Source of the DNA: Spirochaeta sp.
GTDB taxonomy: Bacteria > Myxococcota_A > UBA9160 > UBA4427
DNA: 46,408 bases
Assembly: GCA_002691025.1 (NCBI GenBank)
Contig: NZGT01000100.1
Coordinates: 6,973 to 53,380, forward strand
Reading direction: 5' to 3'
The notes beneath the pieces were generated by a model, which saw nothing but the letters and a program-made list of their open reading frames with translations, had not been told where the DNA came from and did not search any database. Of the stretch, positions 9,460 through 19,767 are shown one piece after another; the first letter of the stretch is position 1, and every line of letters begins with the position of its first letter. Made by a program: the position numbers and the translations under genes.

Positions 9460-11094
9460 CTATTCAGACAGGCTCGGTTCAAAGAGAGAAACCGCCTTCT
9501 CTCCACCCAGTGTGGTAAGCAAGGTCGTCAGCTTCGGCCCCCGATCACGACCCAGCAAGAGGTCGTAGACCACGGGACAGAGCGTCTTCAAGGTGAGTTC
9601 GGTCCCTTCACAGAGCCCCTGCATGTGTGGAATGAGGTCCGGTTCACTGATATCCGGCTCTGCGCGCATGACTTCGACCAGACGGTGGAGCGCACGATGC
9701 TGATCCGCCGACAATGGCTGCTGGACCGGCTCGGATCGGATCTGGAACCGGAATTCCTCCGGTGCATAGGTGCGGGTCCAGTTCCAGCAACAGATCGCTC
9801 GCTGCCGACATGCCTCCGCATCGGCTTGGCTCTGGATGTCACCGCTCTTTTCGTAGTAGGCGACCACCCGGTCTACATCCCCGTCATAAGCCTGAAGCAA
9901 CATGGAGAGCCCTCGGAAGGGAGCAGCAAAAGGGACGGCCTCCCCGGGTACGATTCGAGCCCCCGACGGCGAAGCCAGTTCCAGCGTTCGGCGGGCAATC
10001 TGACGTTTCTTGTCCGCCTTGCTTCCGTCCTCGCTTTCGTGGGCCAATCGGGTTGCTCGATCAAAATCCTCGTAGAGTCGAAGCACATCGAGATCAAACG
10101 AAATCTGGAATTCGCTTCCGGGGCGCTGGGACGCAAAGATCCAGCGCAGAATCATGGGCTCATAGATTTCGAGACAGTCCGCCACCGTAACCACATCACC
10201 GGAGGAACTCGAGATCTTGCCTCCCTTTCCCTTGATCCGGACGAAGTCATAGGAAATGTATTGTGGAGCCTCACCACCATAGACCCGGTCCACGATCACG
10301 GAGCCGGTATCGTAGCTCCCCCCTGCACTGCTGTGGTCCTTTCCTCCTGGCTCAAAGAGGACTCTTTCCACGGACCAGCGCATGGGCCAATCGATGCGCC
10401 AGGGCAACTTGACGTTCCCACCCTGCCTGAGATCCAACTTGGCCTCATGCCCGCAAGACCGACACGAATAGGAGACCTCCCATTCCCCAGACCACTTGAA
10501 ATCAATCTCATCCCGACCGCAGGAATCACAAAAACCAGCCAAAGGAAGCCAGTCCTCGGGAAGAGGTTGAGTGCGGTGGGAGTTGAGAATCTCCCGAAGA
10601 ATGTCTTTTGATTCGAGCGCACGGCGTATGCCGTCCGCATAGTCACCCGCCCGATAACGAACCGACTGCCGAATGAATTCCGGCTCGATCCCAAGAGGAG
10701 CGAGACTCTCTTCAAAGAGAGCCACGAAGTGGGAAGCATAACTATCGTGCTCTCCAAAGGGGTCTGGCACATCGACCACGCTCCGGCGGAGGTTCTCCTC
10801 GAGCAGATCCGGCCGAGGCATTCCAGCAGGTACCTTGCGAAAAACGTCGAAATCATCCCACGAATAGATGAAACGGACTTCGGCGCCTTGATCGCGCAGA
10901 GCCCGGGCCACCAGGTCGACCGTTATGACTTCGCGAAAATTCCCGATATGCACGACACCGGACGGCGTGATCCCCGCCGCCACCGTTACCCCGTCTCCTT
11001 CCTCGCTGGAACGCAGTGTGCGAAATGCGGCCTGATCGGCCCAATGCGAGAAATAAGGATCCCGAACGTTCTGCTTCGACGATTTTGAACTCAT
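9460..11094 (-). CDS. lysK: Lysyl-tRNA synthetase, class I
   Basis: Charges tRNA-Lys. This is the archaeal-type class I enzyme, unrelated to the class II LysS of most bacteria. The 544-residue protein has the HIGH-type motif VVHIGNFRE at 47-55, the class I LysRS segment FIYSWDDFDVFRKVP, two zinc-type cysteine pairs (CDSCGRDE and CRSCGHE), the substrate segment PGGKDHSSAGGSYD, and the KMSKS equivalent KGGKISSSSG. The C-terminal half is the helical anticodon-binding region. I chose the ATG at 11092-11094 because the family N-terminus begins shortly after it. No Shine-Dalgarno is present; instead a -10-like GACAAT ends 9 bases upstream. It follows mreB on the same strand by 91 bases. Confidence 0.95.
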   Translation of the reverse strand: MSSKSSKQNVRDPYFSHWADQAAFRTLRSSEEGDGVTVAAGITPSGVVHIGNFREVITVDLVARALRDQGAEVRFIYSWDDFDVFRKVPAGMPRPDLLEENLRRSVVDVPDPFGEHDSYASHFVALFEESLAPLGIEPEFIRQSVRYRAGDYADGIRRALESKDILREILNSHRTQPLPEDWLPLAGFCDSCGRDEIDFKWSGEWEVSYSCRSCGHEAKLDLRQGGNVKLPWRIDWPMRWSVERVLFEPGGKDHSSAGGSYDTGSVIVDRVYGGEAPQYISYDFVRIKGKGGKISSSSGDVVTVADCLEIYEPMILRWIFASQRPGSEFQISFDLDVLRLYEDFDRATRLAHESEDGSKADKKRQIARRTLELASPSGARIVPGEAVPFAAPFRGLSMLLQAYDGDVDRVVAYYEKSGDIQSQADAEACRQRAICCWNWTRTYAPEEFRFQIRSEPVQQPLSADQHRALHRLVEVMRAEPDISEPDLIPHMQGLCEGTELTLKTLCPVVYDLLLGRDRGPKLTTLLTTLGGEKAVSLFEPSLSE

Positions 11095-11103
11095 GCGGCC
11101 CGA

Positions 11104-11133
11104 ATTGTCACGCAGAACGGTTGGGCACGCCAA
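11104..11133 (-). promoter_or_regulatory. Putative lysK promoter (leaderless type)
   Basis: On the minus strand, TTGGCG (11128-11133) and GACAAT (11104-11109) are separated by 18 bases, and the -10 ends exactly 9 bases before the lysK ATG. The spacing and lack of a ribosome binding site mirror ruvX. It would produce a leaderless transcript. This is inferred from sequence only. Confidence 0.4.
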
Positions 11134-11185
11134 CCCGGACAGCAAGAACTTCGCAGATCAGCGCGAACTCGTCGCACAAAAAAGA

Positions 11186-12223
11186 CTAGGCCAGAGCCAC
11201 CTCTCGAAGCAGGGAGATCCGATCAAGGGCTTCGCCTGCTCCATGGACAACCGCCGTATACGGATCCTCGCTTCTCACTATCGGAAGCTTGGTTTCCTCA
11301 CGGAGAACCTGATCCAGGTCCTGGATCAGGGAGCCTCCACCCACCAGCATGATCCCACGATCGACGATATCGGCCGCAAGCTCAGGCGGGGTCTTTTCCA
11401 GGGTCAGATGGACGGTTTCGATGATGGCATGAAGCGGCTCTACCAGCGCGTCCCTGATTTCCTCGGTGGTCGTCACCACGACTTTAGGGATACCCGCAAC
11501 CAGGTCTCGGCCCTTGATCTCCATCGCCGCTGACTCACTCTGGCTCCATGCGCTCCCGATATTGAGTTTGACGTTTTCAGCGGTGCGCTCACCGATCAAC
11601 ATATTGTATTTGCGACGGACATAATTGACGATGGCCTCGTCCATGGTATCTCCGCCGGTTCGAATCGACCTTGAAGTGACAATTCCCGATAGCGAGATCA
11701 CAGCGACATCCGTGGTCCCCCCTCCAATATCCACAACCATGTTTCCGGCAGGCGCTGTCACGTCAAGGCCCGCACCGATCGCCGCAGCCATTGGCTCTTC
11801 GATCAAGAAGACTTCTCGTGCACCCGCAGACAAAGCCGATTCACGCACGGCCCTCTTCTCAACGCTCGTGATACACGGAGGCACGCAAACGACAATCCGA
11901 GGACGTGCGACAATTCGACGGTTGTGGGCACGGGCGATGAAATAGCGAAGCATCGCCTCGGTCACCTCGAAGTCGGCGATCACACCGTCCTTGATCGGAC
12001 GAATCGCCCGTATCGAACCGGGCGTGCGCCCAAGCATCTCCTTGGCGGCATGACCCACGGCCAGGACCCGTTGGCCGCGACCATCACCACTATCAGAAAC
12101 AGCGACCACACTGGGCTCAGAACACACCAAGCCATCACCTCGGCGATAAACCAGTGTGTTCGCAGTCCCCAGATCAATCGCCAAATCATGGGAAAACAAG
12201 CCGGCTAAAGATTTGAGCAACAT
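11186..12223 (-). CDS. mreB: Rod-shape actin homologue MreB
   Basis: Cytoskeletal ATPase forming membrane-associated filaments that direct lateral cell-wall synthesis. The 345-residue protein has the normal length. It begins LFSHDLAIDLGTANTLVY with phosphate-binding loop 1, followed by phosphate loop 2 VVDIGGGTTDVAVISL and the adenosine motif GIMLVGGGSLI near the C-terminus; LIEEPMAAAIGAGLDV is also diagnostic. AAGGA precedes the ATG at suitable spacing. It stands downstream of the proteasome locus, and mreC/mreD are not adjacent, which is unusual since mreBCD often form one operon. Upstream (12224-12467) is a 244-base gap with a GAGGGT/ACCCTC inverted repeat but no gene. Confidence 0.96.
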   Translation of the reverse strand: MLLKSLAGLFSHDLAIDLGTANTLVYRRGDGLVCSEPSVVAVSDSGDGRGQRVLAVGHAAKEMLGRTPGSIRAIRPIKDGVIADFEVTEAMLRYFIARAHNRRIVARPRIVVCVPPCITSVEKRAVRESALSAGAREVFLIEEPMAAAIGAGLDVTAPAGNMVVDIGGGTTDVAVISLSGIVTSRSIRTGGDTMDEAIVNYVRRKYNMLIGERTAENVKLNIGSAWSQSESAAMEIKGRDLVAGIPKVVVTTTEEIRDALVEPLHAIIETVHLTLEKTPPELAADIVDRGIMLVGGGSLIQDLDQVLREETKLPIVRSEDPYTAVVHGAGEALDRISLLREVALA

Positions 12224-12467: not shown

Positions 12468-12896
12468 TCAAGGGTTCGTAAGAGACCCTGCAGCCTGCCC
12501 TGGCGACACAGAAGGAACGGGCGCCTTCGGATCGCTTTCAACCAGCACTTTGAGTTCTTCCACGCGCTGATCCAGGTCGCCCACACGAATCCGTACATCG
12601 CTGAACCGGTCGTCGTACGCCTTGATCTGACGCTGGGCTTCAAGCAGCGCGGAATCCAAGCGGCTGACCTCAAGCTCCAAGCCTTCAGCGCGACGGTACT
12701 GCTGAAAAGCCAACGCCATTCCCATCAGGAGCCCGACCAATCCCCAGAGCCATACACCGCCGCTCCGACGAACACGGGACGCCTCCTGAGGCTTGGGCGC
12801 CGAGGTCGTGGCCGAGAACTCTTCAGCCGACTCGTCGGGCTGCCCGGCTTCTTCTCCCACTACTCGCAACTTGGATTCTTCGCCCAGCGCTTCCAC
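12468..12896 (-). CDS. Unknown single-pass membrane coiled-coil protein downstream of pafA
   Basis: I do not recognise a family. The start is a GTG at 12894-12896 preceded by GGAGGGG at ideal spacing, giving 142 residues. The frame is open upstream to 12980 but without a comparable ribosome site. Residues 1-45 are acidic, Ser/Pro-rich and probably disordered. 47-64 is one membrane helix (VWLWGLVGLLMGMALAF). 67-121 is a strongly heptad-like coiled coil rich in Leu, Glu and Arg. The last 20 residues are Pro/Ser-rich. Positive residues just before the helix (RVRR) suggest the N-terminus is cytoplasmic and the coiled coil lies outside. It follows pafA by 111 bases on the same strand, so it may belong to the proteasome transcript. 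A role in that system is inference. Confidence 0.7.
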   Translation of the reverse strand: MEALGEESKLRVVGEEAGQPDESAEEFSATTSAPKPQEASRVRRSGGVWLWGLVGLLMGMALAFQQYRRAEGLELEVSRLDSALLEAQRQIKAYDDRFSDVRIRVGDLDQRVEELKVLVESDPKAPVPSVSPGQAAGSLTNP

Positions 12897-13007
12897 GGTG
12901 CCCCTCCATACTGATTCACGCGTCAGAGAGACTCTCGCAGATTCGTAAGGAAATGAGAAGGCTGAAAAACGATTTCCCAAACGCCGCCCGGAGAACCCGG
13001 AGCAACC

Positions 13008-14414
13008 TCAGGACTGGATCACCAATTTCGAGAGACTGGTTTTACGCAGGTTCGTCTTCTGGATGGTTCGTACCAGTTCGGCCACCTTCTCGGTATCCGT
13101 TTCGAAAGGATTGTTGCAGATCACCCGAACGTTCAGGAGATTCCCCAAACGGATATTGGACCAGTCGAGGTCGTATTGGATCGAATTCTCTCTGGCCAGT
13201 TTGATGAACTCCCCACGCATACGAGCCCGGGTGTCCGGCGGCGGCTCCGTCTTGGCCAGATCAACCGCTTCGTCATCAAAAAGGCGATCCACGGCCCCAT
13301 TTCTTTCAAGGAGGTGGTAGAGGCTGCGCTTTCGCTGGATGTCGTGGTATTGCAGATCCATCATGAAGACCTTGGGATCATTCCATGAGGTACCGTGGCG
13401 ATCGATATAGGATTCGATCATACGACGCTTGATGACCCAATCTACCTGACGATCCAATCGGTTGGGGTCATCATTCAAGCAGTCGAGCACGTGCTGCCAC
13501 ATGCCCACCGCCTCTTTGTGCTCATCATCCACCGGATACTGCTCGATATATTTCTGCGCCATCTCGCAGTACTCCATCTGGATCTCGATGGGCGAATACT
13601 CTCGACCGTTATCCAGACGAAGCTTACGCTTGCAGGTCACATCATAGGTGATGTCCTTGATCGCCTTGACGGGATTGCGAAGCGTGAAGTCCTTGTTGAT
13701 GTAATTATCTTCGATCATCTGGAGCACAACCGAGCAGGTTCCCACCTTGATGAAGTTGGTGTACTCGCTCATATTCGAGTCGCCGACGATGACATGGAGC
13801 CTGCGATACTTCTCTCGGTCGGCGTGCGGTTCATCCCGGGTATTGATGATGGACCGGTCATTCGTGGTCGTCCCAGAGATCTTCTGATAGATGTGCTGCG
13901 CCCGCTGACTGATGCAGTAATGGACCCCGTCCTGGGTCTGGAAGACCTTGCCAGCGCCCGTATAGATCTGACGCGTCACCAGGAAGGGAATCAACTGCTC
14001 GGCCAGGTAATAGAAATCTACATCCCGATCAACGAGATAGTTTTCGTGACAGCCGTAGCTGTTCCCGACGAAATCCGTGTTGTTCTTGAAGATCGAGAGC
14101 TTCCCAGGAATCCTCTCCTCACGGATCTTCTCTTCCGCGTACTGTTGGAGATCCTCTAGAATCCGCTCTCCCGCCTGGTCGTATATGATCAACTGCTTGG
14201 GCGAAGCGCACTCCGGCGTCGCATACTCCGGATGACAACCCGTATCCTGGTAGAAACGCGCTCCATTCTCGAGAAACACGTTGAGAAAGTGCTCTGTCGT
14301 GATGAGCTTCTCAAAGAGAAACCGGATCGCTTTTTCTACAGGAAGTGTTTTACGCCCTTCCGGCGTAAAAATGATCCCGTATTCAGTCTCTATTCCATAG
14401 ATTCGCTTCTGCAT
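13008..14414 (-). CDS. pafA: Pup-protein ligase PafA
   Basis: Uses ATP to phosphorylate the C-terminal Glu of Pup and joins it through an isopeptide bond to a substrate lysine. The 468-residue protein has the glutamine-synthetase-like fold motifs: YGIETEYG with the metal-binding Glu, the catalytic Asp57 in YQDTGCHPEYATPEC, FKNNTDFVGNSYGCHENY, the central NTRDEPHADREKYRRLHVI and VGDSNMSEYTNF. It lacks the Dop-loop insertion between the first motif and NVFLENGARFY, which separates it from the paralogue at 16327. The C-terminal small domain (about 400-468) that binds Pup is present. It is the last enzyme gene of the proteasome locus, 44 bases after prcA. Confidence 0.96.
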   Translation of the reverse strand: MQKRIYGIETEYGIIFTPEGRKTLPVEKAIRFLFEKLITTEHFLNVFLENGARFYQDTGCHPEYATPECASPKQLIIYDQAGERILEDLQQYAEEKIREERIPGKLSIFKNNTDFVGNSYGCHENYLVDRDVDFYYLAEQLIPFLVTRQIYTGAGKVFQTQDGVHYCISQRAQHIYQKISGTTTNDRSIINTRDEPHADREKYRRLHVIVGDSNMSEYTNFIKVGTCSVVLQMIEDNYINKDFTLRNPVKAIKDITYDVTCKRKLRLDNGREYSPIEIQMEYCEMAQKYIEQYPVDDEHKEAVGMWQHVLDCLNDDPNRLDRQVDWVIKRRMIESYIDRHGTSWNDPKVFMMDLQYHDIQRKRSLYHLLERNGAVDRLFDDEAVDLAKTEPPPDTRARMRGEFIKLARENSIQYDLDWSNIRLGNLLNVRVICNNPFETDTEKVAELVRTIQKTNLRKTSLSKLVIQS

Positions 14415-14458: not shown

Positions 14459-15157
14459 TCAATTCGTCAGCAGGTCTCGCACCTGCTCTACCGACAGACG
14501 CTCGAACTTCCTGCCACGTTTGGCACTGCGCATGATCGAAACCTCAAGGCTTGACTCGTCCAGGCTGGATGTCCGATCCGCGCCTCCCTCCAGAGCCCGA
14601 ACACCCAGGCGGAGTATCGAACCGACTTCCATGCCCTCTTCATATTCACCCGACATGACACCCTCGACGTCATCGACATTTCCACCAATGACGCAGAATC
14701 GACTGTGCTCACTTATGAAGCCATCGAAGGTCACGCGGTACAGTCGGTTCCGGCAGTCATCGTCCCATCGATCGTCGCCTACTTCAGCAACAATGATTTC
14801 GATCTCAAGCGGCTTCGGGTCTCGTGTAAAAGCTTCTCCGATGACTCGGGAATACTCGTTCGCAAGAGCCTTACCGCCTACGTCTTCCCGACTGTAGGCG
14901 TACCCTTTCGTATCGGCGTAGCGAACGCCGCCCTTCCGGAGTTGATCGAATTCACTGAATTTGCCTACACCCGCAAAAGCGATGCGGTCATAGATCTCGC
15001 CGATCTTGGAAAGGCTCGTCGCATTCTCTGCCACCAACAGAACACCCTCTGAGTATTCTGCGGCAATGATCGACTTCCCTCTCGCAATTCCCTTCCGCGA
15101 GAATTCAGCCTTGTCGGCCATGATCTGTTCAGGAGACACATAGAACGGGGCACTCAT
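14459..15157 (-). CDS. prcA: Proteasome alpha subunit PrcA
   Basis: Forms the outer heptameric rings of the 20S core particle and gates substrate entry. The 232-residue sequence opens with FYVSPEQIMADKAEFSRKGI and continues with IARGKSIIAAEYSEGVLLVAEN, YDRIAFAGVGKFSEFDQLR and GGVRYADTKGYAYSREDV, all close to actinobacterial PrcA. It lacks a propeptide and a catalytic Thr, as expected for an alpha subunit. The ATG overlaps the prcB stop by 4 bases (ATGA), which favours translational coupling and 1:1 stoichiometry. The C-terminal 35 residues are basic and more variable. Confidence 0.96.
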   Translation of the reverse strand: MSAPFYVSPEQIMADKAEFSRKGIARGKSIIAAEYSEGVLLVAENATSLSKIGEIYDRIAFAGVGKFSEFDQLRKGGVRYADTKGYAYSREDVGGKALANEYSRVIGEAFTRDPKPLEIEIIVAEVGDDRWDDDCRNRLYRVTFDGFISEHSRFCVIGGNVDDVEGVMSGEYEEGMEVGSILRLGVRALEGGADRTSSLDESSLEVSIMRSAKRGRKFERLSVEQVRDLLTN

Positions 15158-15996
15158 GCTCGCGCTTCTCCATTTCTTCGTTCTGAGACAACCGAACGGT
15201 ACGCTTCCTCGATTTCGGATTCGACACCATCTTCCACGCCATCACCACTGCATATCTTGATGACCGGGTAGATGCCTCTTTCCAGATCCACTCCACCGGT
15301 GGCACGGTCCTCGTCCGCCGCCGCGGTCAACGCCCTGACCGCCAGCACCACCGACTCTGCACGTGTTATATCAGGTCGCCAGAACTGCTTGAGTGTCTCC
15401 CTGGCATAGATTCCACCAGACCCGGTCGCGTCAAACTCCGTCTCTTCGTAGCGCCCACCCGTGATGTCGAATTTCCACAGACGGCCGGTTTTCCGGCGTG
15501 AATCGAAACCAGCAAAGAGCGGCACCACGGCCAACCCCTGCATGGCCGCTGGCAGATTCTGTCGGAGCATCTGGGAGAGCTTGTTTGCCTTCCCTTCCAA
15601 CTCCAGCGCCTGTCCTTCAATCTTCTCGTAGTGCTCGAGTTCCACCGACAGAACCCGGGCCATCTCGATGGCCGGACCGGCTGCTCCCGAAATGGCCATG
15701 CAGGAATAGTTGTCTGTCGCAAAGACCTTGACGACGTCCCTCGAGGCCACGGAATGTCCCGCAGTAGCAAGTCGATCTCCAGCCACAACGACACCGTCTG
15801 CACACTTCATGGACAGCACAGTCGTCCCGTGAGGAATCGACTCCAGTGCCGCCTGACTCCATACTGCTTCATCAGGCAGCAGGTGAGGATGCTCTATCCG
15901 CAAAAGGTCGAAGAAACTCGACCCGTTATATTGGGCATTCAAACGCACGCTTCCCTCCATGACGGTATTCGTCGGCATAGACCGATTGGCCACCAT
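15154..15996 (-). CDS. prcB: Proteasome beta subunit PrcB (N-terminal threonine protease)
   Basis: Catalytic subunit of the inner rings of the 20S proteasome. The 280-residue precursor has a 57-residue propeptide; autocleavage at HG/TTVLSM would expose Thr58, the same position as in the Mycobacterium enzyme. Mature features are TTVLSMKCADGVVVAGDR with the Asp and Lys neighbourhood of the active site, AISGAAGPAIEMARVLSVEL, and FDATGSGGIYARETLK. The acidic C-terminus (DGVEDGVESEIEEAYRSV) is typical. The ATG follows the pup stop by 7 bases, and its ribosome binding site lies inside the last pup codons. It is coupled to prcA downstream. Confidence 0.97.
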   Translation of the reverse strand: MVANRSMPTNTVMEGSVRLNAQYNGSSFFDLLRIEHPHLLPDEAVWSQAALESIPHGTTVLSMKCADGVVVAGDRLATAGHSVASRDVVKVFATDNYSCMAISGAAGPAIEMARVLSVELEHYEKIEGQALELEGKANKLSQMLRQNLPAAMQGLAVVPLFAGFDSRRKTGRLWKFDITGGRYEETEFDATGSGGIYARETLKQFWRPDITRAESVVLAVRALTAAADEDRATGGVDLERGIYPVIKICSGDGVEDGVESEIEEAYRSVVSERRNGEARA

Positions 15997-16003
15997 CGGA
16001 AAA

Positions 16004-16276
16004 TCACTCCCCGCCGCGCTGCACGTAGTTCTTCACGAACTCTTCCGCGTTCTCTTCGAGAACCGAGTCGATTTCATCGAGCAGGGAATCCATGTCTTCT
16101 TTTATTTCCTCGCCCTTCTTGGCAATCTTCTTGCTGGAACCACTGCCCCCTTCAGGGCCGGAATCCCCACCGCCTTTTGCCTTTTCCTTCTGCTTCTGAT
16201 CCGAACCCGCGGCCATGAAGACCCTGGCCCGATCAGATGCGTGCTGATGGGCTGATCGCTCTATGAATTTTGCCAT
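16004..16276 (-). CDS. pup: Prokaryotic ubiquitin-like protein Pup
   Basis: Small disordered modifier that is attached to lysines to mark proteins for the proteasome. The C-terminal half, DSLLDEIDSVLEENAEEF then VKNYVQRGGE, matches the Mpa-binding helix and the conjugation terminus. The last residue is Glu, so no deamidation by Dop is needed before ligation, unlike Pup ending in Gln. The centre is Gly/Lys-rich and disordered. I chose the ATG at 16276 (90 residues) because GGAGAGG lies seven bases upstream. The internal Met21 would give a 70-residue protein of more usual size but has only a poor ribosome site. The extra segment MAKFIERSAHQHASDRARVF is unlike known Pup N-termini. Confidence 0.95.
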   Translation of the reverse strand: MAKFIERSAHQHASDRARVFMAAGSDQKQKEKAKGGGDSGPEGGSGSSKKIAKKGEEIKEDMDSLLDEIDSVLEENAEEFVKNYVQRGGE

Positions 16277-16326: not shown

Positions 16327-17808
16327 TCAGTCCATATTGGCCAGCAACGACTTCGCGTTCTCGGATTTGTCCAGAAGTTCCTCGACGTGGGCCTGGGTGC
16401 CTTTCAGAGGCTCATTCATCATCACCCTCTTGATGGGATCATCGTCCACACCAAACGAGATCGAATCCCAGTTGACTCCAAAAACCTCGCCCGGATAACG
16501 CCGAAGACACTCACCACGAAAGAAAGCCCGGGTGTCCGCAGGAGGTCTGAAAACTGCATTATTGATCTCTTCATCAGTGCAGATACGTCGCATCTTGCCC
16601 TGGCGTTCGAGCATGTGATAGAGCCCTTTGTCCGGGCGCGTATCATGATATTGAAGATCCATCATCTGGACTTTCGGGTCCTTCCAATCAAGCCCCTGGC
16701 GATCCATGAAGCTCTCGATCAGTGCTTTCTTCGCCACCCAATCAATGCGATCCCTCAGTTCCATGGGATCGCTGGCGAGCAGGGTCATGACTTCTTGCCA
16801 CTCTGCCAGAACCTCGCGAACCGCATCGTCCACGGGGTTCCGCTCGGCATAGGTCAAAGCCATCTCGAGGAATGCAGTCTGGATCTCCACGCCCGTCATC
16901 TTCTTGCCATTATCCAGCTGGATTTCCTGCTTCAAGCTCGGATCGTGGGATACATCCTTGATCGACTGGACGGGGTCTCGCAAAACGAGATCCTGATCAA
17001 TCGCTCCGTCCTCGATCATCGAAAGAATGAGCGCCGTCACACCGCTTCGCAGATAGATCGTATATTCACTCATGTTCGAGTCACCGACGATGATATGAAG
17101 GCGGCGATATTTTTCCCGATCGGCATGCGGCTCATCGCGCGTGTTGATGATCGGACGCTTCACCATCGTATCCAAAGCCACTTCCGTCTCGAAGAAGTCG
17201 GCCCTCTGGCTGATCTGGAAATCGCATCGCTTCGCGCGATTTTCGCTGCCGACCTTGCCGGATCCGCAAAACACCTGCCTGGTCGCAAAAAACGGAAGGA
17301 GATGCTCAACGATACGCTTGAATGACGCTCTACGATCCATGAGATGATTCTCATGGGAGCCATAGCTGTTGCCTTTGTGGTCGCTGTTGTTCTTGTGGAG
17401 GAGCATCAAAGCCCCTTCAGGCAGAAGCTCGGTGGCTTCACGCCGACTGATCTCCATGACACGCTCACCCGCCTTCTCATGCATCACGAGATCACGTGCG
17501 TTGGTCACCTCCGGACAGGAGTACTCGGGATGCGCATGGTCAACGTAATAGCGAGCCCCATTGATCAGCGTCTTGTTGCGGGCAATGTTCTCCTGCTGGT
17601 TGGGCGTATACTTTTCGCCATCCACCTGAAAACCACGAGCATCTGCCAGCGGATTTTCCTGATCGTAATCCCAGAGAATCCGACCTTCCGGATCTTCGCG
17701 ATATGCGTTGACCAGAAGCACGCAGCTGGAAATGGGATCGAAGTCAGGACTATTCTTTACGATAATCCCGTACTCGATCTCTGTGCCCATGATGGTGGGT
17801 ATCGCCAT
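16327..17808 (-). CDS. dop: Depupylase / Pup deamidase Dop
   Basis: Paralogue of PafA that hydrolyses the Pup-substrate isopeptide bond and, where Pup ends in Gln, deamidates it. The 493-residue protein has IMGTEIEYGI at the N-terminus with metal-ligand Glu10, a Dop-loop region with ILWDYDQENPLADARGFQ at 44-61, and the catalytic Asp90 in YYVDHAHPEYSCPE. It also has HKNNSDHKGNSYGSHENHL, NTRDEPHADREKYRRLHII and VGDSNMSEYTIY, and the C-terminal MNEPLKGTQAHVEEL. The Dop-loop and the HAHPEYS variant separate it from PafA. Because Pup here already ends in Glu, depupylation is its likely main task. It lies between mpa (114 bases) and pup (50 bases). Confidence 0.96.
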   Translation of the reverse strand: MAIPTIMGTEIEYGIIVKNSPDFDPISSCVLLVNAYREDPEGRILWDYDQENPLADARGFQVDGEKYTPNQQENIARNKTLINGARYYVDHAHPEYSCPEVTNARDLVMHEKAGERVMEISRREATELLPEGALMLLHKNNSDHKGNSYGSHENHLMDRRASFKRIVEHLLPFFATRQVFCGSGKVGSENRAKRCDFQISQRADFFETEVALDTMVKRPIINTRDEPHADREKYRRLHIIVGDSNMSEYTIYLRSGVTALILSMIEDGAIDQDLVLRDPVQSIKDVSHDPSLKQEIQLDNGKKMTGVEIQTAFLEMALTYAERNPVDDAVREVLAEWQEVMTLLASDPMELRDRIDWVAKKALIESFMDRQGLDWKDPKVQMMDLQYHDTRPDKGLYHMLERQGKMRRICTDEEINNAVFRPPADTRAFFRGECLRRYPGEVFGVNWDSISFGVDDDPIKRVMMNEPLKGTQAHVEELLDKSENAKSLLANMD

Positions 17809-17922: not shown

Positions 17923-19767
17923 CTAGAGATATTGACCCTGGCCACCAGTGGTCACGGTCTCGATTGTCTGCTCCTTGCGCTCCATCCCGGTAATCAGGGT
18001 CCGGACATTGATGATCCGCTCACCCTTACGGCCCGAAATTCGAGCCCAATCGTCGGGATTCGTGGTATTCGGCAGATCTTCATTCTCCTTGAACTCTTCG
18101 CGAACGGAATCGATCATATCCTCGTACCGGATACCTCCGTCGCCGTCATCAATCATGCGCTTGACCGCTTTGCGCTTGGCTCGCGCCACAATGTTCTCGA
18201 TCATGGCTCCACTCGCAAAGTCCTTGAAGTAGAAGATTTCCCGCTCGCCCTTCGCGTAGGTCACCTCAAGGAACTTGTTCTCTTCTCCCGTTGAGTACAT
18301 GTTCGCTATGACTTCATCGATCAAGCCAAGACAAACGTCTTCCGCATCGTTTCCATATCGCTCAAAAGCACTCTGGTGGATCGGAAGGTTCGACGTCAGA
18401 TACTTCCTGAAGATTTCCCGTGCCGCCGCACCATCCGGACGCGAGACCTTGACCTTGAGGTCCAGACGTCCCGGCCTGAGCACGGCAGGGTCGATGAGAT
18501 CCTGACGATTACTCGCACCGATCACGATCACATTCTGCAAGGATTCCACGCCGTCAATTTCAGAAAGGAACTGAGCAACCACCGTCGCCTCCATGTCGGA
18601 GGAAACACCGGACCCTCGCATTCGGAAGAGCGAGTCCATCTCGTCGAAGAACACCACCACGGGACTCTCTTCAGAAGCTTTCTCACGAGCCTTCTTGAAG
18701 ACCTCCCGAAGCTTGCTCTCGGTCTCGCCCACATACTTGTTCAGAAGCTCCGGCCCCTTGACATTGAGGAAGAAGGCCGCCGTTTGACGACCTGTCCGCT
18801 TCTCGATCTTCTTGGCCAGGGCGTTCGCTACAGCCTTGGCAATCAGTGTCTTACCACAACCGGGAGGCCCGTAGAGCAAGATGCCCTTGGGCGGATTGAG
18901 TTCATAATCCTGGAAGATCTCAGGATGTAGATACGGCAACTCCACCGAGTCCCGCAAGATCTCGATCTGATCTCCCAAACCTCCGATATCGTCATAGGTC
19001 ACGTCCGGCACTTCTTCGAGCATGACTTCTTCCACGGCCGATTTCGGCATCTTCTCGAATGCATACTGGGTCCGCGGATCCACCATCAATCGATCGCCAA
19101 CTCGAATCTTCTCAGCTCGAAGAGGCTCAGCCAGATTCACGACGCGCTCGTCGTCCGTATGCCCCAGGACCATGACCCTGCTCTCGGAGACCACGTCCGC
19201 CACAGTCACAACCTCGCCGCGCTGCGTATACCCAGCCGCTTCAACAACATTGAAGGCTTCATTGAGAACGACCATCTGGCCCTCCTCAAGCTGGAAGGCA
19301 TCGAGATCGGGGTGGACATTGACTCTCATATTTCGTCCATCCACGAGGATCTCGGCCGTATCATCCTTGTTCGAACGCAAGAAGACCCCATAGGAATTCG
19401 GCGGAGCGCAGAGTTTGTCTACCTCTTCCTTCAGCAACTCGATCTGCTGCTTGGATTCCTGCAGCATGCCCACAAGCTTCTCATTCTGACGTTCAGAATC
19501 CCGATGTTGAACACGGACCTGCTCGTAGCGTCTCCTGAGCGTCTCGAAGTCGGTCAGGAGACGATCCAAACGGTGCCGGAATTCACCGGAGTCGCTCCCG
19601 AAAAACCGCATCGCGTCCTGCAGGTCGTCAGCGCCGCTTTCGCGCCGTCCTTCACCGAAAGGCAAGGACTCGTCCCCTTCCTCTCCCGGTGCAGGAGACA
19701 TACGCCTCATCACGTCTCGTACAAAGCCAGACCGCCCGTTGCCCGAATCAGAATCATGTTCGCTCAT
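17923..19767 (-). CDS. mpa: Proteasomal AAA ATPase Mpa/ARC
   Basis: Hexameric unfoldase that captures pupylated proteins and threads them into the 20S core. The 614-residue protein has a variable acidic N-terminus (1-55) and a coiled coil at about 60-120 that binds the Pup helix. A double OB domain (about 122-245) follows, then the AAA module with Walker A GPPGCGKT at 300-307 and Walker B VVFFDEMD at 371-378. The pore-loop region NVKGPELLNKYVGETE is also visible. It ends in Gln-Tyr-Leu, the HbYX-like tail that docks on the alpha ring, identical to mycobacterial Mpa. GAGGAGAGGG precedes the ATG. It is the first gene of the locus, with operator-like repeats just upstream. Confidence 0.97.
   Translation of the reverse strand: MSEHDSDSGNGRSGFVRDVMRRMSPAPGEEGDESLPFGEGRRESGADDLQDAMRFFGSDSGEFRHRLDRLLTDFETLRRRYEQVRVQHRDSERQNEKLVGMLQESKQQIELLKEEVDKLCAPPNSYGVFLRSNKDDTAEILVDGRNMRVNVHPDLDAFQLEEGQMVVLNEAFNVVEAAGYTQRGEVVTVADVVSESRVMVLGHTDDERVVNLAEPLRAEKIRVGDRLMVDPRTQYAFEKMPKSAVEEVMLEEVPDVTYDDIGGLGDQIEILRDSVELPYLHPEIFQDYELNPPKGILLYGPPGCGKTLIAKAVANALAKKIEKRTGRQTAAFFLNVKGPELLNKYVGETESKLREVFKKAREKASEESPVVVFFDEMDSLFRMRGSGVSSDMEATVVAQFLSEIDGVESLQNVIVIGASNRQDLIDPAVLRPGRLDLKVKVSRPDGAAAREIFRKYLTSNLPIHQSAFERYGNDAEDVCLGLIDEVIANMYSTGEENKFLEVTYAKGEREIFYFKDFASGAMIENIVARAKRKAVKRMIDDGDGGIRYEDMIDSVREEFKENEDLPNTTNPDDWARISGRKGERIINVRTLITGMERKEQTIETVTTGGQGQYL

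Follow-up and report, generated by a model that had tools for sequence, protein, structure and literature searches.

The Pup-proteasome locus and the gene behind pafA

The window analysed here, a stretch of 46,408 nucleotides, has a full Pup-proteasome locus on its minus strand, with the genes in the order arc/mpa, dop, pup, prcB, prcA and pafA (Table 1). After a further 111 nt, on the same strand, comes a gene for a membrane coiled-coil protein, and 244 nt separate this gene from a second mreB, here called mreB2. The open reading frame runs from a GTG start at 12896 to a stop at 12468 and encodes 142 amino acids. The spacing between the GGAGGGG sequence and the GTG is suitable for translation initiation, and a longer in-frame version, starting with TTG at 12980, has no such site ahead of it. 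The initial annotation had described a 142-residue protein with one membrane helix and a long coiled coil, encoded after pafA on the same strand, and this description is borne out by the reading frame, the hydropathy, the heptad analysis and the structural model.

Table 1. Features of the locus and of the membrane coiled-coil protein (positions in the window)
Feature	Positions	Strand	Basis
mreB2, second MreB	11186..12223	-	PF06723, E 9.9e-144
Membrane coiled-coil gene, 142-aa bitopic protein	12468..12896	-	Family profile match 1.3e-32 here in own genome
Coiled coil, residues 65-120	12537..12704	-	Heptad analysis, AlphaFold2 model
Membrane helix, residues 46-64	12705..12761	-	Hydropathy
Tail at the N terminus (residues 1-45), predicted to be disordered and cytosolic	12762..12896	-	Low pLDDT, no secondary structure, flanking charge
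SKLRVV, residues 8-13, counterpart in the window of the conserved tail motif PxLxxV	12858..12875	-	Alignment consensus
Shine-Dalgarno-like GGAGGGG ahead of the GTG start	12901..12907	-	Read from sequence
pafA, Pup ligase	13008..14414	-	PF03136, E 3.1e-153
prcA, proteasome alpha subunit, 4-nt overlap with prcB	14459..15157	-	PF00227
prcB, proteasome beta subunit	15154..15996	-	PF00227
pup, GGE at end	16004..16276	-	PF05639
dop, second Pup-ligase family protein, adjoins pup	16327..17808	-	PF03136; name by position and similarity
arc/mpa, proteasomal ATPase, GQYL at end	17923..19767	-	AAA and Prot_ATP_ID_OB domains

A scan for promoters and terminators gave counts near those of shuffled sequences. 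Downstream of mreB2, a class I (archaeal-type) lysyl-tRNA synthetase gene is found at 9460-11145, an arrangement that just 7 of the 46 compared loci with the membrane coiled-coil gene have.

The gene family and its neighbours

The gene is a member of a genuine family under purifying selection: dN/dS ranged from 0.12 to 0.41 in seven pairs of relatives, which rules out a spurious reading frame. No Pfam or NCBIfam family was found for the protein, apart from scattered weak coiled-coil matches. The sequence search of the PDB gave a best E value of 1e-4, to unrelated coils, the best Foldseek hit against the PDB had an E value of 7, and the search of a plasmid collection returned no match.

A protein search of 97 related genomes matched 52 of them at an E value of 0.01, and nearly all of the 30 loci listed from it sit between pafA and mreB2. 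The PafA scan of named genomes returned 80 loci, of which 66 belong to the class group, whose metagenome-assembled genomes for the most part bear the label Myxococcota or Deltaproteobacteria; the other 14 come mainly from Nitrospira. The Myxococcota class in question is the one that we take to be GTDB class UBA9160. The family profile, built from 40 of the 66 class-group loci plus the window, recovers the gene in 48 of the 66; in three of the 18 loci where it was missed, the contig ends inside pafA (L086, L089, L090). The 14 non-class pafA loci gave no convincing family match, with one weak hit at E 7e-4. One sequence (L080), a 187-aa frame without the family features, was removed from the family set as spurious; another (L069), identical to L068, was left out of the heptad, motif, dN/dS and lysine counts and kept in the charge count (48 sequences); a gene split over two frames (L040) was left as found.

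Searching 90 class genomes with a 30-row alignment (A1) gave 64 strong matches in 63 genomes, all with E values of at most 4.3e-12, followed by a gap and then, from 5e-10, by a background of other coiled-coil proteins. In a draw of 282 genomes from the phylum, all 44 strong matches fell in the class (59 genomes) and none in the 223 genomes outside it, in a search that scored at most 15 candidates per genome and may miss weak relatives. Family members are only 18-36% identical to the window protein, while the neighbouring PafA proteins are 75-97% identical. Two likely paralogues lie away from pafA (L247:1870-2487 and L248:1696-2340, in G035 and G065); they share the build of the family, and their starts, SSLAVDEASPEG and AISIVDEATPEE, are similar. 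In most Nitrospira loci (L098-L110), the gene right after pafA encodes a protein of 311-339 aa with an N-terminal membrane helix and an M23/LytM peptidase-like motif recognised by eye; the position behind pafA is taken there by an envelope gene of another kind.

Among the 64 strong class matches, 61 come after pafA and share its strand. The distance is at most 700 nt in 59 of these and likewise in the other two (G077, G088), whose pafA is cut by the contig end. In G066 the gene stands at the very start of its contig. In G046 the gene is 1.2 kb from pafA, with an opposite-strand gene between them, and adjoins mreB2; in G051 it also adjoins mreB2, and no pafA is present within the preceding 1.2 kb. 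The conservation of the adjacency in related genomes, which the initial annotation had proposed to check, is thus confirmed, and the contrary outcome named there, homologues occurring mostly away from pafA, was looked for and not found. Start codons were picked by a heuristic ribosome-binding-site score and the gaps are approximate; on this basis, the gene starts at -4 to +10 nt relative to the stop codon of pafA in 24 of the 47 loci with a readable start, three of which overlap the stop by 4 nt. The gap from the gene to mreB2 is at least 74 nt in every one of the 47. Within f1, the family to which the window belongs, more than 100 nt often separate the gene from pafA, leaving room for a separate promoter.

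The association with mreB2 is nearly as extensive, with mreB2 at most 1 kb downstream in 56 of the 64 strong matches. This second mreB is carried by 71 of the 90 class genomes and is 70-100% identical to that of the window, besides a canonical mreB at about 65-69%; in the window's own genome the canonical mreB, at G000:C148:16577-17602, adjoins mreC. The gene is kept with pafA in G006, where mreB2 was not found, in G033 and G038, where other genes come before mreB2, and in G049 and G053, where mreB2 is on another contig. At one locus of G049 (L218, contig C127), two overlapping PafA matches in different frames point to a probable frameshift or assembly error. Eleven genomes have mreB2 and lack the gene, nine of them with a full-length pafA, and in six of the 11 pafA and mreB2 are at most 600 nt apart. 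Since the two adjoin in six genomes without the gene, the linkage between pafA and mreB2 is independent of it.

Cross-tabulating the gene against mreB2 gave 61 genomes with both, one with the gene alone (G006), 11 with mreB2 alone and five selected genomes with neither (Fisher p 0.001, ignoring kinship). The five double negatives were chosen among 16, and keeping all 16, many of which are incomplete or have pafA cut or absent, gives p 1e-9. Besides the 11 double negatives set aside, G013 (contig end) was excluded from the test, G057 was kept despite its fragment of pafA, and G041, with a fragment of mreB2 at a contig end, was counted as having both.

Protein anatomy and comparison with known systems

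The AlphaFold2 model of the window protein is a single continuous helix over residues 47-120 with disordered ends, and block pLDDT values are 95-98 across most of the coil. In the 32 members of standard length, the heptad core positions hold 342 L/I/V/M/F residues versus 125 +/- 8 in shuffles. The coil spans 35, 42, 49 or 56 residues between two anchors in 44 of 47 members, always whole heptads; the coil thus keeps its phase between the membrane and the LVxxxP end, which is conserved, and drifts in length by heptads. The tail has a median length of 38 aa in the family, and its PxLxxV-like motif recurs in the alignments across families of the class; the strict pattern, with the initial P, is carried by 31 of 47 members, while 16, including the window protein, depart from it.

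Lysine and arginine are more numerous before the membrane helix than after it in 31 of 48 members, fewer in seven and equal in 10; the totals, 138 versus 86, amount to a modest bias among sequences that are related to each other. The share of lysine among the basic residues, K/(K+R), is 0.052 in the family coil, compared with 0.076 in FtsB, 0.129 in FtsL and 0.167 in MreC (after the membrane helix) and 0.351 in the ARC coil, and lysine is entirely absent from 13 of 47 members. On the strength of flanking charge and lysine content, the tail is probably in the cytosol and the coil in the periplasm, as a topology that composition indicates rather than proves. Lysine deserts occur in pupylating bacteria (PMC10665810). 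We did not adopt the idea that the lysine-poor coil is a shield against pupylation, because the FtsB, FtsL and MreC coils of the class are likewise lysine-poor and the compartment can explain the composition. A role of the protein itself as a Pup substrate is ruled out for the part of the family that lacks lysine.

Among known proteins, the short bitopic build with a periplasmic coil is shared with FtsB/DivIC (PF04977). The profile comparison matched the family to FtsB at 82.7% over 65 columns, covering the membrane helix and the coil only, and coiled coils match each other easily; the match may reflect distant kinship or a shared build. PF04977 itself did not match the window protein, nor is it among the 25 of 35 families listed for 41 members. 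The family differs from FtsB in its long tail with a motif of its own and in lacking, in its consensus (A1, A2), the C-terminal segment DPFAxERAIREELxLARPGE present in the FtsB alignment (A4), and a separate FtsB was found in 30 of 30 genomes searched. FtsL has a similar size and the same succession of tail, single membrane helix and coil, but the profile match to it is 2.0% and the family gene is not downstream of rsmH. Pfam detected FtsL in none of the 30 genomes, but of 12 rsmH loci inspected, eight have a gene for an FtsL-type small membrane protein after rsmH. MreC carries after its coil a PF04085 domain that is absent from the window protein, the family-to-MreC match is 0.3%, and a separate mreC is present in 30 of 30 genomes. 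That the reading frame is the genome's own FtsB, FtsL or MreC is ruled out, all of them being present elsewhere.

The coiled coil of Mpa/ARC is encoded in the same locus; unlike the family, ARC has no membrane helix and its lysine content differs, and hhalign of its Pup-binding coil against the family gave 0.2%, with no profile similarity. Bpa/PafE is likewise a small helical protein of proteasome-bearing bacteria, and it has a GQYL-type end. An HbYX-like end was found in 0 of 47 members, which rules out a proteasome activator of this type; Bpa is moreover described as a ring-shaped activator encoded outside the Pup locus (PMC8223512). The closest precedent by description is that of Iyer et al. 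2008 (PMC2588565), who report a membrane protein adjoining the Pup ligases of Plesiocystis and Rhodopirellula, ligases with four membrane segments, and suggest the pupylation of membrane proteins there. Going by that description, a membrane-protein gene is linked to a Pup ligase in both cases, but no proteasome genes are linked in Plesiocystis and Rhodopirellula, whereas the locus of the window is complete. Several class genomes encode additional proteins of the Pup-ligase family, with frame lengths of about 600-655 aa (G083:C53, G084:C54, G070:C379, G032:C77, G079:C83, G066:C466, G064:C361, G062:C282, G085:C226). Outside the class, a different Pup ligase occurs in 10 of the 223 phylum genomes, usually with a frame of 545-627 aa. 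The size of these proteins recalls the ligases with membrane segments (PMC2588565).

Candidate partners and meaning of the locus

The initial annotation had proposed that the coiled coil recruits proteasome components or tagged proteins to the envelope. The part of this proposal that placed a membrane-anchored coil in the Pup locus stands, since the gene does belong to the locus. The recruiting mechanism is unlikely, as a periplasmic coil could not reach Pup and Mpa in the cytosol, and we give very little credence to the whole reading, in which a cytosolic coil captures Pup, Mpa or tagged proteins at the membrane. Seven of 48 members do have the charge excess after the helix, and a lysine-poor coil, down to the members with no lysine, would also resist pupylation if it were cytosolic; the majority of members, however, have the opposite bias, the lysine share is far from that of the cytosolic ARC coil and closer to those of periplasmic coils, no similarity to ARC was found, and the conserved motif is in the tail. 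A dedicated proteasome role is in general weakened because most of the genes are linked to mreB2 and the gene has been lost where the Pup ligase is kept.

We tentatively favour, at somewhat less than an even chance, a reading in which the gene is the last of a class-specific Pup-proteasome operon and its product is an oligomeric anchor in the inner membrane, with a tail that holds a partner in the cytosol, most likely PafA. This reading starts from established features, namely the gene, its family, the membrane helix, the heptad coil, the adjacency to pafA and purifying selection. The periplasmic coiled coil would tie two or more chains together, the disordered cytosolic tail would present the short PxLxxV-like motif as a docking site, and this motif would hold the partner at the membrane; PafA, together with which the protein is probably made, is the most likely candidate. 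The linkage to pafA, the starts near its stop codon and the retention of the gene beside pafA when mreB2 is lost or separated favour this reading, as do the recurring tail motif, the whole-heptad coil, the orientation and the absence of strong matches from the 223 outside genomes. It is weakened by mreB2 being almost as close a companion, with G046 and G051 on the side of mreB2, by the 11 mreB2-bearing genomes that lack the gene, mostly with a full-length pafA, and by the modest charge bias, the members that depart from the strict motif and the frequently wide gap in f1.

The partner could instead be MreB2, a possibility to which we grant a smaller but substantial weight: a small bitopic elongation or envelope protein, with a tail that binds MreB2 filaments and a periplasmic coil that meets wall-synthesis proteins, would owe its link to pafA to operon position only. 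The proximity of mreB2, the co-occurrence of the two genes, the two genomes in which the gene adjoins mreB2 with pafA apart, and a build of membrane helix plus periplasmic coil like that of FtsB, FtsL and MreC, with the FtsB profile match, are all consistent with this. Nevertheless, the gap to mreB2 is never short, the gene has stayed next to pafA in G006, where mreB2 was not found, and in G033 and G038, where other genes precede mreB2, pafA and mreB2 adjoin in six genomes without the gene, and the Fisher test takes no account of relatedness and includes double negatives that were picked. Overall, PafA is slightly favoured over MreB2 as the partner. Rather unlikely, in our view, is an envelope protein distantly similar to FtsB that merely occupies a conserved neighbourhood, with no working tie to Pup or MreB2. 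Its fast divergence beside a well-conserved PafA, its several losses while the neighbours stay, the occurrence of similarly built proteins at other places in these genomes (L247 and L248 among them also resemble the family in their start) and a profile match to FtsB far above those to MreC and FtsL would fit such a protein; against it, the adjacency outlasts far sequence divergence across the families of the class, the starts lie very close to the stop codon of pafA at roughly half of the loci, and FtsB and FtsL are present elsewhere in the genomes.

The gene is real and conserved, belongs to the Pup locus and has no name so far. The literature searched, which did not extend to most subscription papers or to any preprints, yielded no description of a gene of this kind. 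The searches for the Pup-proteasome with Myxococcota and for UBA9160 with proteasome found no paper, and the matches for proteasome with pafA and mreB were unrelated by title and abstract. Actinobacterial and Nitrospirae Pup loci are reviewed in PMC8223512 and PMC3511204, and the former places pafBC near pafA in Actinobacteria.

Work on the bacterial Pup-proteasome rests on Actinobacteria. Most of a Myxococcota class has a complete Pup system in which a membrane protein takes the place of pafBC and is followed by a second mreB. Binding of the tail to PafA would give pupylation a membrane address; binding to MreB2 would mean that the locus couples protein turnover with cell shape. The fullest version of the anchor reading, which we regard as doubtful, is that the protein is a dedicated anchor of the complete Pup-proteasome system, whose tail would hold PafA, and perhaps MreB2 filaments, focusing tagging and degradation on the growing envelope. 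If the anchor reading is true, these bacteria would have a proteasome pathway that is sited at the membrane and connected with the cytoskeleton.
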